NCBI GenBank assembly: GCA_029559035.1
Contig: JAKQCT010000013.1
Coordinates: 1-64,000 of the forward strand
Direction of reading: 5' to 3'
Source: Acidobacteriota bacterium
GTDB lineage: Bacteria > Acidobacteriota > UBA4820
Length of the DNA stretch: 64,000 nt
Every line of letters begins with the position of its first letter. Position 1 is the stretch's first letter. This document shows, piece after piece, positions 26,047 to 29,340 of the stretch. A program made the position numbers and the translations under genes. The notes under the pieces are model-generated. The model was not told the origin of the DNA, ran no database searches, and was given only the letters and a program-made list of their open reading frames with translations.

Positions 26047-27582
26047 ATGACTGTTATTATCGACGGAACCAACCTGACCATCGAGAACGTTCTTCAAGTG
26101 GCAAGATTCAGCGAGAAGATAGAACTCCACCCTTCCTCGCTGGAAAAGATCAAGGCTTCGAGGGCATTCATCGAAAGGAAGATAAAGGCCAAGGAGATCA
26201 TGTACGGCGTCAACACGGGCATAGGCGAACTGGCGTCGATCGTCCTTGACGAGAACCAGACGAAGGAGTTCCAGAAGTACCTCATCTACAACCACGCGGC
26301 AGGCATCGGAGAACCCGCTCCGATCGAACACGTGAGGGCCGCCATGCTGAGCAGGGTCAACGTGCACGCCAAGGGATACAGCGGCTGCCGCCCCGAGATC
26401 ACACTAACCTACATCGACATGCTGAACAAGGGCGTCATCCCGGTCGTCTGCGAAAAAGGCAGCGTAGGAGCCTGCGGGGACCTCTCCCCCATGAGCCAGT
26501 GCGCTCTCTCCCTGATGGGCGAGGGCGAGGCTTTTTACCAGGGCAAGAGGATGCCGACCAGGGACGCCATGGAGAAGGCGGGCATACCCATCCCCGGCCT
26601 TCAGGCCCGCGACGGTCTCGCCGCGATCAACGGGTCGAACCTGATAACCGGCATCGGCTGCATCCTCCTCAACGACATCGAAGCGTGGACCAAGCACGCC
26701 GAGATCGCCGCCGCGATGACCCTGGAGGCCCTGCTCGCCAACATGAAGCCCTACAACACCCGCATACACGAACTGCGCGGTTTCCAGGGCGCCGTGAAGT
26801 CAGCCGCGAACCTCCGCGCCGTGATGAACGAATCCGACCTGATGACCGGAAAGATGAAGGTCAAGGTCCAGGACGCGTATTCGATGCGCTCGACGCCGCA
26901 GGTGATAGGCGCGCTGCGCGACCAGCTCGCCCACGCCAGGAAACAGCTCGAGATCGAGCTCAACGGAGTCGCCGACAACCCGATCTTCGTTGGCGAAGAG
27001 GACATCGTCCTGACCGGGGCCAATTTCCAGGGGACGCCCATCAGCCTGCCTCTCGACGTCGTCGGCGCGGCGGTAACGATGGTTTGCGTCCTATCGGAAA
27101 GAAGGCTCAACAGGCTTCTTAACCCCGCCTGCAGCGTGGGGCTCCCCTCCTTCCTGACCAAGGGCGCCGGAATGTTCTCCGGCATGATGCTGAGCCAGTA
27201 CACGGCGGACATGCTCATCAGCGAGGCGCGCATCCTTTCCGCTCCCGCCTATGTGCTTTCCATCCCCGCCGCGGCGGACCAGGAGGATTTCGTCTCGATG
27301 GGAATGAATTCCGCCCTCAAGACCAAGCAGATCCTGAAGAACTCCTACGGCGTAATGGGCATCGAGTTCATGGCCGCGGCGCAGGCGCTGGATTTCAGGG
27401 ACTTCGGCTTCGGGAAGGGAACAAAAGCGGCACACTCCGCGATCAGGAAGCACGTCGAGCATCTCGAGGTCGACAGACCTCTCTTCAACGACCACAACGC
27501 GATGTCCGCCCTCGTGGAGAGCGGCGAGATCCTGAGCGCCGTCGAAAAAGAGGTCGGTCCTCTCGTCAGCTCGTGGAAATAG
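26047..27582 (+). CDS. hutH: Histidine ammonia-lyase family protein with Ala-Cys-Gly MIO triad
   Basis: A 511-aa aromatic amino acid lyase of HutH length. Counterparts of the bacterial HAL active-site residues fall at almost the same numbers: Tyr53 (YGVNTGIG), Asn195 (INGSN), Tyr278 and Arg281 (QDAYSMRSTPQV), Glu413 (AAADQEDFVSMG). The prosthetic-group triad reads Ala142-Cys143-Gly144 (codon TGC) instead of Ala-Ser-Gly. Ser-to-Cys enzymes are reported to remain active in this family, so MIO can probably still form. GQF-type neighbours differ (NFQGTPI). Substrate is likely histidine, but PAL/TAL-like activity cannot be excluded. No hutU or hutI is nearby. The start has GGGGGACAAA upstream. Confidence 0.85.
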   Translation: MTVIIDGTNLTIENVLQVARFSEKIELHPSSLEKIKASRAFIERKIKAKEIMYGVNTGIGELASIVLDENQTKEFQKYLIYNHAAGIGEPAPIEHVRAAMLSRVNVHAKGYSGCRPEITLTYIDMLNKGVIPVVCEKGSVGACGDLSPMSQCALSLMGEGEAFYQGKRMPTRDAMEKAGIPIPGLQARDGLAAINGSNLITGIGCILLNDIEAWTKHAEIAAAMTLEALLANMKPYNTRIHELRGFQGAVKSAANLRAVMNESDLMTGKMKVKVQDAYSMRSTPQVIGALRDQLAHARKQLEIELNGVADNPIFVGEEDIVLTGANFQGTPISLPLDVVGAAVTMVCVLSERRLNRLLNPACSVGLPSFLTKGAGMFSGMMLSQYTADMLISEARILSAPAYVLSIPAAADQEDFVSMGMNSALKTKQILKNSYGVMGIEFMAAAQALDFRDFGFGKGTKAAHSAIRKHVEHLEVDRPLFNDHNAMSALVESGEILSAVEKEVGPLVSSWK

Positions 27583-27595
27583 GAAGGGCGCAATT

Positions 27596-28762
27596 ATGAA
27601 AAAGCTGTCTCCTGTATTCCTTTCGGTCCTTCTCTTCGCGCTGCCATTATTCGCCGCAGCGCCCGAAAGAGACGCGATCCTTAAAGAGATGGCTATCCCC
27701 TCCACGGACAAAGTCAGGGGGCAGAAGGACGGCGTCGGTTACGCCAGGACGGCGGAACAGATGACCGAAGCCTGGGACCTTTCCGGCTCCGCTCCTTCTC
27801 CCCTCTGTTTCGGAAAGGAGATCCTCGGGGAAGGTATTGCGGTGATCGTCCCTCACGACGATTATATTTACGCCGGGCGCGTCTACAGGTCGCTCGTTCC
27901 GGCGCTGAAGGCGAAAACCGTCGTCATCGTCGCCCCTTTCCACCGCTGGAAGGATTTCGGCGTCAGGGGCAGGGTCGTTTTCGACGGGTACGACGCGTGG
28001 AGGTCACCGGAGGGAGAGGTCCCCGTTTCGAAGATCAGGGATATAATCGTTCGCGGCCTGCCCGCTTCGGATTATGTCGTCAGCAACACCATGCACGACT
28101 CCGAGCATTCGATCGAAGGTCCCCTCTACTGGCTGAAGCGGGCGAATCCCTCCGTCGAGATAGTCCCCATCCTAGTGACTCCGATGGACTACCAGACGAT
28201 GGAGCAGGTCCTTTACGACCTGAAGGACGTCCTCGGGAACTACCTCGAGTTCAACGGCATGAAGATCGGAGAGGACGTCGGGTTCCTAATCAGCGCCGAC
28301 GCGGTCCACTACGGCGAAGACTTCAATTACGCCCCCTACGGGCCCGGCGGAGTGGAACCTTACCTGAAAGCGGTAGAGGAAGACAAGCGGATAATGTCCA
28401 GGCTTCTATCCGGCACCGTCAACGAACGCAGGCTCAAGGCCATCTTTTCCGCCTTCCAGGACCCGAACGCCCCCGATGCGGCGCACATAACCTGGTGCGG
28501 GCGATTCTCGATACCCTTCGGCCTGAGCCTGGCGTCCGGACTCTTTTCAAGCCTGAAAGGCAGGGGCGAAAGCAGAGGCCTCGTCTGCTTCGGCACGCCG
28601 ATCGCATACTCGACATCGGTCGGAACTCCGTCACTTCCTTCGAGGACGGGCATGGCATCGACGGCCCCCTCCAACCTTTACCATTTCGTCGGCCACCCCG
28701 GGATGTTCTACGGAAAGGCGCTGGTGGAGCCTCTCTCCCAGAACAGGGAGCCCCTCCAGTAA
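27596..28762 (+). CDS. Exported MEMO-family (AmmeMemoRadiSam protein B-like) protein
   Basis: A 388-aa protein of the MEMO1/AMMECR-associated fold. Landmarks: VPHDDYIYAGRV, VVIVAPFHR, a HDSEHSIEGPLYWL helix (the EHS motif) and ISADAVHYGEDFNY, which match the metal and substrate cleft of the family. Unusually it begins with a clear signal peptide (MKKLSPVFLSVLLFALPLFA, cleavage near residue 20), so it should act in the periplasm, whereas family members are normally cytosolic. No AMMECR1 or radical SAM partner is in the window. It starts 13 bp after the lyase stop with GGAAGGG as ribosome site, so the two are probably one transcript. Confidence 0.85.
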   Translation: MKKLSPVFLSVLLFALPLFAAAPERDAILKEMAIPSTDKVRGQKDGVGYARTAEQMTEAWDLSGSAPSPLCFGKEILGEGIAVIVPHDDYIYAGRVYRSLVPALKAKTVVIVAPFHRWKDFGVRGRVVFDGYDAWRSPEGEVPVSKIRDIIVRGLPASDYVVSNTMHDSEHSIEGPLYWLKRANPSVEIVPILVTPMDYQTMEQVLYDLKDVLGNYLEFNGMKIGEDVGFLISADAVHYGEDFNYAPYGPGGVEPYLKAVEEDKRIMSRLLSGTVNERRLKAIFSAFQDPNAPDAAHITWCGRFSIPFGLSLASGLFSSLKGRGESRGLVCFGTPIAYSTSVGTPSLPSRTGMASTAPSNLYHFVGHPGMFYGKALVEPLSQNREPLQ

Positions 28763-28857
28763 GAGCCACTTGATTTTTCGGCCCGCAGGCTTTAATCTGG
28801 GAACATGAGCTGAGTTCCTTGTCCTTTGTTGATTTTTTGCCGCGAAGGAGGCTTGAG

Positions 28858-29340
28858 ATGGAGACCTACCGGATCCCAAAAGAAAAAATGACGGTTCTGC
28901 TGAGAGTCCCCCCGGAGCCTCCCGACGAGAAGACGGTTTTTCTCAGCCCGTTCGCGGATTCCCACCAGGGACGAGAGACCTTGTCGGACCTTTTGCTGAA
29001 GAAAGACAGGTTCCTCCCCGTGCTTGAAAAGGATTCATACCTTCTCCTCGTTCAGAAAAGCGCGATACAGTGGATCGAGGTGCTGAAGCCAGAACAGGCC
29101 GAATGGTACTATTTCGAAATGAGGCAGGGAACCTCAAAGGCGAGGATACTCGTCGAATTCACGACGGGTGAAACGATGGAGGGCCACATCCACGCCCTCA
29201 CTCCCGAAGGGGACAGGAGGGTCTCCGACGTTATAAACCTCTCGCAGGGGTTCCTTCATCTCGAGACGAGGGAGGGCCTCTATCTTATAAACCTGGAAAA
29301 GGTCAATACGGTCAAGATAATCGAAGAAGAAGCTTCATGA
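28858..29340 (+). CDS. Hypothetical protein, DUF6812-like
   Basis: A 160-aa cytoplasmic beta-rich protein. Two similar halves carry a pattern of loops and strands: FLSPFADSHQGRETLSDLL with a following LLLVQKSAIQWIEV, then ILVEFTTGETMEGHIHAL with INLSQGFLHL and YLINLEKVNTV. This duplicated layout resembles small proteins annotated DUF6812 in Deltaproteobacteria; function unknown. The ATG at 28858 follows AAGGAGG by 6 bases and is preferred over an upstream ATG at 28819. Confidence 0.6.
   Translation: METYRIPKEKMTVLLRVPPEPPDEKTVFLSPFADSHQGRETLSDLLLKKDRFLPVLEKDSYLLLVQKSAIQWIEVLKPEQAEWYYFEMRQGTSKARILVEFTTGETMEGHIHALTPEGDRRVSDVINLSQGFLHLETREGLYLINLEKVNTVKIIEEEAS

Follow-up and report, generated by a model that had tools for sequence, protein, structure and literature searches.

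Proteins of the MEMO family are distributed from archaea to humans, are normally intracellular and have been linked to cancer and to iron homeostasis, and we know of no molecular function that has been agreed upon for the family. A protocatechuate dioxygenase-Memo superfamily with five Memo families has reportedly been delineated by Burroughs et al. 2019 (J Biol Chem). The iron ligands of human MEMO1 are H49, H81 and C244, as given in the accessible part of PMC11081632. The same part reports no catalytic activity for MEMO1, so that even in the parent family a role as an enzyme is uncertain, and it names a Glu as the third ligand in the class III extradiol dioxygenases LigB and DesB. RRE-MEMO fusions are already in print, as far as the available part of PMC12710340 goes.

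The protein described here is encoded on the forward strand of a 64,000-nucleotide stretch of acidobacterial DNA, the whole of which is called the window. It is like human MEMO1 (PDB 7kq8, 3bcz) in its fold over 280 residues, in its His/His/Cys site and in the EHSIE and SDxxHxG-type pocket motifs, but differs in its predicted export, in having PHDDY for PHAGY, in its length (388 against about 294 aa) and in the presence of WCGR and a conserved C-terminal TAPxNLYHFVGY. Like AmmeMemoRadiSam system protein B it scores above the TIGR04336 cut-off; unlike that protein it carries a signal, belongs to a clade of its own and has no adjacent AMMECR1 or radical SAM gene. The signal-bearing MEMO-AMMECR1 fusions (L002 for example) also carry an export signal ahead of a MEMO domain, but they are of the PHAG type, form another clade, have AMMECR1 fused and lie next to a Tat-type radical SAM gene. 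With the class III extradiol dioxygenases (DesB, LigB, 2-aminophenol dioxygenase) the fold is shared at a Z of about 15 to 16, whereas their Glu ligand is replaced by a Cys (70/70 rows of the MEMO alignment), the window protein is apparently exported and its subfamily occurs in strict anaerobes.

The MEMO gene, its signal peptide and its relatives

The gene product begins with MKKLSPVFLSVLLFALPLFAAAPE. Its ATG is preceded by a Shine-Dalgarno-like GGAAGGG, whose end lies 7 bases 5′ of the start, and by the stop codon of the upstream gene, which ends 13 bases 5′ of it. The features at this end of the gene are the following.

27596..28762, + strand: MEMO-family protein predicted to be exported, 388 aa, ATG start, from PF01875, TIGR04336 and an AlphaFold2 model
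27596..27655, + strand: predicted Sec-type signal peptide, approximately residues 1-20, from sequence, rule score, the low-confidence N-terminus of the model and a codon-position test
27689..27691, + strand: M32, a nearly invariant Met and the sole nearby shorter in-frame ATG, judged internal

The PF01875 profile (Pfam) was matched with an E of 1.3e-18 and 67.7 bits against a gathering cut-off of 27. TIGR04336 (NCBIfam, 'AmmeMemoRadiSam system protein B') gave 75.2 bits (cut-off 26) in a match covering model positions 38-210 of 270 only, and the stricter MEMO1 equivalog NF001987 gave 50.6 bits, below its cut-off of 295. With PF01875, TIGR04336 and the MEMO1 fold described below, membership of the MEMO family is far beyond chance. 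The source genome holds three MEMO genes: the one in the window, an ordinary one on contig C74 and a fusion on contig C24.

The N-terminus has the layout of a signal peptide, with MKK, a hydrophobic core and LFA followed by AAP, the putative signal peptidase I site lying between the two triplets. The Tat and lipoprotein routes were considered for the window protein and rejected, its N-terminus having neither twin arginine nor lipobox. Lipobox-like strings were seen in three relatives, and these were located within the hydrophobic core and are not believed.

An alignment of 20 relatives (A1) served to scan named bacterial genomes for further relatives, and the best 80 of 502 stretches were analysed. 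These came mainly from Acidobacteriota (Geothrix and other Holophagae, Thermoanaerobaculia, Aminicenantes), the remainder being from Eisenbacteria, Latescibacterota and Gemmatimonadota with single records from further groups. Signals were called by a home-made hydropathy rule, not SignalP, with a threshold of 2.0 that was the same for four MEMO classes. By this rule 71 of the 78 subfamily members were signal-bearing against none of 30 ordinary free-standing MEMO proteins, and the MEMO-AMMECR1 fusions were so in 12 of 13 cases and a third MEMO class in 0 of 8. The 78 scored members were the 81 entered, window included, minus L047, L078 and L106, which lacked a usable core or frame. An earlier and different rule had classed 59 of the 80 as signal-peptide-like and 12 as weak; 6 had no start within range, and the remaining 3 lacked the core motif. 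Among the seven members negative by the present rule, L070, L079 and L101 (a spirochaete, a planctomycete and a Burkholderiales bin) seem truly without a signal, L085 is cut by a contig edge and in L066 a possible signal lies beyond the range that was allowed.

The exported form is well supported, on these sequence comparisons, as a trait of the subfamily and not a quirk of one genome. A MEMO-family open reading frame with a signal peptide, as the sequence-only reading had it, was thus borne out by profiles, fold and the Sec-type signal. Its further claim of a periplasmic version stands in part: export has good support from the subfamily counts set against the ordinary controls, while the final location, periplasm or outside, is presumed. 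Its premise that MEMO proteins are cytosolic in known cases was too simple. Since MEMO-AMMECR1 fusions of the same phylum carry signals, one of them in the source genome, the window protein is not an isolated exception in an otherwise cytosolic family.

A maximum-likelihood tree was generated from 70 MEMO domains, with the subfamily represented by 19 rows, ten further intended rows having been left out by too strict a pattern. The subfamily was found on one branch with support of 100/100 and a length of 2.11, and the ordinary MEMO proteins (n = 30), the fusions (n = 13) and the third class (n = 8) each formed their own group. Judged by sequence, the window protein is a member of a distinct MEMO subfamily whose mark is PHDDY. 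The third class (L151-L158) consists of proteins of approximately 400-440 aa that have an additional domain at the N-terminus and lack a signal, and is possibly the same as the RRE-MEMO fusions in the available part of PMC12710340.

The parent MEMO family is well known, but the literature searched yielded no description of an exported subfamily bearing a signature of its own, and no paper dealing with export of either a MEMO protein or the AmmeMemoRadiSam radical SAM. That literature did not cover Burroughs et al. 2019, which may already list the PHDDY subfamily, and no priority is therefore claimed for it.

Fold, metal site and candidate function

An AlphaFold2 model was made from 71 aligned sequences (alignment A4; of the 80 loci, nine short or doubtful ones and one with N were left out) and was confident apart from its N-terminus, with a mean pLDDT of 92.7 and a pTM of 0.91. 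The top structural match was human MEMO1 (Foldseek E 4.7e-17), to which VIA-align aligned 280 residues at Z 29.6, rmsd 2.9 and approximately 20% identity. The next folds were archaeal TK2203 (Z 17.1) and DesB (Z 16.0); class III extradiol dioxygenases and TK2203 together ranged from Z 13.5 to 17, an uncharacterised E. coli protein reached 11 and the other matches listed were below 5. The residues of the predicted site and pocket are given below.

27854..27856, + strand: H87, predicted metal ligand, equivalent to H49 of human MEMO1 by alignment to 3bcz; invariant
27941..27943, + strand: H116, predicted metal ligand, equivalent to H81 of human MEMO1 by alignment to 3bcz; invariant
28496..28498, + strand: C301, predicted third metal ligand, equivalent to C244 of human MEMO1, in WCGR
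27857..27862, + strand: D88-D89, subfamily signature, Ala-Gly in ordinary MEMO
28103..28111, + strand: E170-H171-S172 (EHS), pocket motif
28298..28330, + strand: D235 to Y245 (DAVHYGEDFNY), with D235 and H238 expected beside the metal site

The positions of H87, H116 and C301 were invariant in all 71 sequences of A4 and in all 70 rows of the four MEMO classes, and the column of C301 was the only Cys column common to these 70 rows. Also invariant in A4 were D88, D89, W135, R148, E170, H171, S172, E174, D235, H238, Y239, W300 and G302. The pair D88-D89 was present in 19/19 subfamily rows, where the ordinary rows had A in 30/30 and G in 29/30; PHDDY, D88/D89, R148, W300 and the C-terminal NLYHFVGY motif are the marks of the subfamily. 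Two relatives (L022 and L023, from genomes G004 and G006) have Trp at H171, with SEWSVE for SEHSIE, and keep the metal ligands.

The EHS and HYGEDFNY motifs (E170-H171-S172 and residues 238-245) had been reported as retained cleft motifs in the sequence-only reading, and they are indeed present. Both contribute pocket residues, however, and not ligands of the MEMO1 type, and the predicted Cys ligand C301 had not been mentioned. A loss of metal ligands, which that reading had named as a reason to abandon its claim, was not observed among the aligned sequences, and the predicted site appears intact. The structure prediction that it had proposed gave the confident MEMO1-like model described above.

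On balance we lean towards a mononuclear-metal enzyme with the MEMO/LigB fold that leaves the cytoplasm through Sec, is independent of AMMECR1 and radical SAM and probably does not depend on O2. Such a protein would pass through Sec unfolded and lose its signal to signal peptidase I at about residue 20; it would fold, either in the periplasm or beyond the cell, around one metal on H87, H116 and C301. The charged pocket would be lined by D88, D89, H171, D235, H238, R148 and W300. A small substrate might be bound there and turned over without an AMMECR1 or radical-SAM partner, probably without O2, in a hydrolytic or lyase-type reaction and not by ring-cleaving dioxygenation. Against an exported enzyme of this kind speak the awkward combination of a Cys ligand with Fe(II), if that is the metal, in an oxidising periplasm, the Trp in place of H171 in L022 and L023, and the 7/78 members without a signal by the rule. 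The substrate of an exported MEMO would have to be available in the envelope, and no cytosolic partner would be needed.

The protein could instead be a non-catalytic exported metal binder, acting in the scavenging, delivery or sensing of iron or copper, in which the MEMO site merely holds the metal. The ligands are invariant, and human MEMO1 binds Fe and Cu at the equivalent site and showed no dioxygenase activity on the substrates tried, according to the accessible part of PMC11081632. The invariant non-ligands D88, D89, W135, R148, E170, D235 and W300 nevertheless exceed what holding a metal would need, and no recurrent metal transporter or receptor was present among the neighbour families listed, so we regard a mere metal binder as unlikely.

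Co-occurrence with AMMECR1 and radical SAM

Neither AMMECR1 nor radical SAM was found by tblastn in the window or at any of the 80 loci, in searches where the positive controls were found, and membership in an AMMECR1/radical-SAM gene cluster or fusion was accordingly seen neither for the window gene nor at the 80 loci. In the two genomes G049 and G061, which are 99-100% complete, the subfamily MEMO was the only TIGR04336 match, no AMMECR1 was found and no TIGR04337 match exceeded the cut-off. Gene order at the 80 loci and co-occurrence in G049 and G061 thus indicate that the subfamily has no fixed link with the classical three-gene set. A stand-alone extracytoplasmic subfamily that provides the sole MEMO of these two genomes would narrow the question of MEMO function sharply.

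The fusion of the source genome is encoded on contig C24 (L002:1435-2919) and is a MEMO-AMMECR1 protein of 495 aa with a Sec-type signal. Adjoining it is an AmmeMemoRadiSam radical-SAM gene (L026, C24:62122-63105) with a Tat-like signal. A twin-arginine signal together with CxxxCxxC was present in 14/14 radical-SAM neighbours of fusions (L026, L164, L169-L179 and L181) and in 5/15 others, and from these sequences the radical SAM beside the fusions looks exported. The Tat-type radical SAM beside the fusions raises the question of radical-SAM action outside the cytoplasm; if the enzyme truly works across the membrane, radical-SAM chemistry would take place where SAM is presumed absent, and the exported MEMO would be part of an envelope-side modification pathway.

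In a different account of the window protein, it would act with this exported AmmeMemoRadiSam set, the Tat-type radical SAM and the Sec-type fusion being encoded elsewhere in the same genomes. A fusion was counted in 19 of the 24 genomes with subfamily MEMO and in 12 of the 56 without (Fisher P 2e-6, uncorrected for kinship), where the counts were read by eye, a fusion was an open frame of at least 475 aa with a PHAG-type score, and an AMMECR1 match on the same stretch was established for the 19 genomes with both and only in part for the 12. The co-occurrence is an association only and not obligate. Five of the 24 genomes had no fusion and two of these lacked AMMECR1 and radical SAM altogether, the genes were not adjacent in the window or at the 80 loci, and shared ancestry could yield the association; the involvement of the exported set consequently seems to us quite improbable. 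Equally doubtful in our view is the broader proposal that Acidobacteriota and their allies have an extracytoplasmic MEMO chemistry in at least two forms, a stand-alone MEMO and a full AmmeMemoRadiSam set with a Tat-exported radical SAM.

Oxygen, translation start and gene neighbourhood

The fold shared with DesB, LigB, 2-aminophenol dioxygenase and DOPA dioxygenase (Z 13.5 to 16) and the two His ligands in common would fit an exported extradiol-type dioxygenase cleaving an aromatic ring with O2. The third ligand was nevertheless Cys and not Glu in 70/70 rows, so the two-His-one-Glu site of these enzymes was not found, and no recurrent family of aromatic-ring degradation was present among the neighbour families listed. 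Eight Geothrix isolates among the 80 of 502 records carry the subfamily gene, and the available part of PMC4885859 describes isolates of Holophaga and Geothrix as strict anaerobes. With a Cys as third ligand and the gene kept in strictly anaerobic Geothrix, O2-dependent ring cleavage is very unlikely. Geothrix is also a culturable carrier, in which deletion of the gene would be a direct test of function.

A longer or shorter in-frame start lacking the signal had been put forward as what would undo the initial claim. A longer start was not found anywhere in the open frame, and the shorter one at M32 is judged internal. The consensus PxxEEVRKxM in the 71 sequences of A4 revealed conserved residues 5′ of M32. 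Among 20 pairs of relatives, the 358 substitutions in the signal region fell on codon positions 1/2/3 in the ratio 114/74/170, a third-position share of 0.47 compared with 0.64 in the mature part. The excess over one third had a binomial P of 2e-8, which is indicative only since the pairs share sequences. The third-position excess and the conserved PxxEEVRK before M32 mean that the signal region is translated in the relatives. A cytosolic MEMO translated from M32, with the hydrophobic N-terminus as a gene-calling artefact, is hardly credible even though M32 is nearly invariant and a purine-rich stretch often precedes its equivalents, given the PxxEEVRK conservation, the ordered helix of residues 25-31 in the model, the upstream codon-position bias and the hydrophobic signal kept in 71/78 members.

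Upstream of the MEMO gene lies one further feature.

26047..27582, + strand: histidine ammonia-lyase (PF00221), 13 bases upstream of the MEMO gene

Close same-strand neighbours across the 80 loci were mostly unrelated. The tallies comprised the 25 commonest families listed of 72 upstream and 35 downstream, from simple ORF picks of which some may be wrong, and the downstream ORF of L098 was left out. Upstream (n = 47, window included), PF00221 was found in 6 and flavin amine oxidase in 4; downstream (n = 33, window included), a DUF6812-like protein was found in 3. The PF00221 lyase was the only upstream family in more than 4 loci, and was confined to two families of one order. Besides the window it preceded the MEMO gene at L030, L031, L067, L083 and L088, with 75-82% identity to the window lyase. 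The source genome encodes a urocanase elsewhere, and a second lyase of the PF00221 type was not found in it. With one order only, urocanase elsewhere and no second lyase, the enzyme looks like part of ordinary histidine breakdown, and a substrate deduced from this neighbour was for that reason rejected.

Downstream, at 28819-29340 of the window, a protein with weak similarity to DUF6812, below the Pfam cut-off, is encoded, and its relatives hold the same place in L030 and L031.
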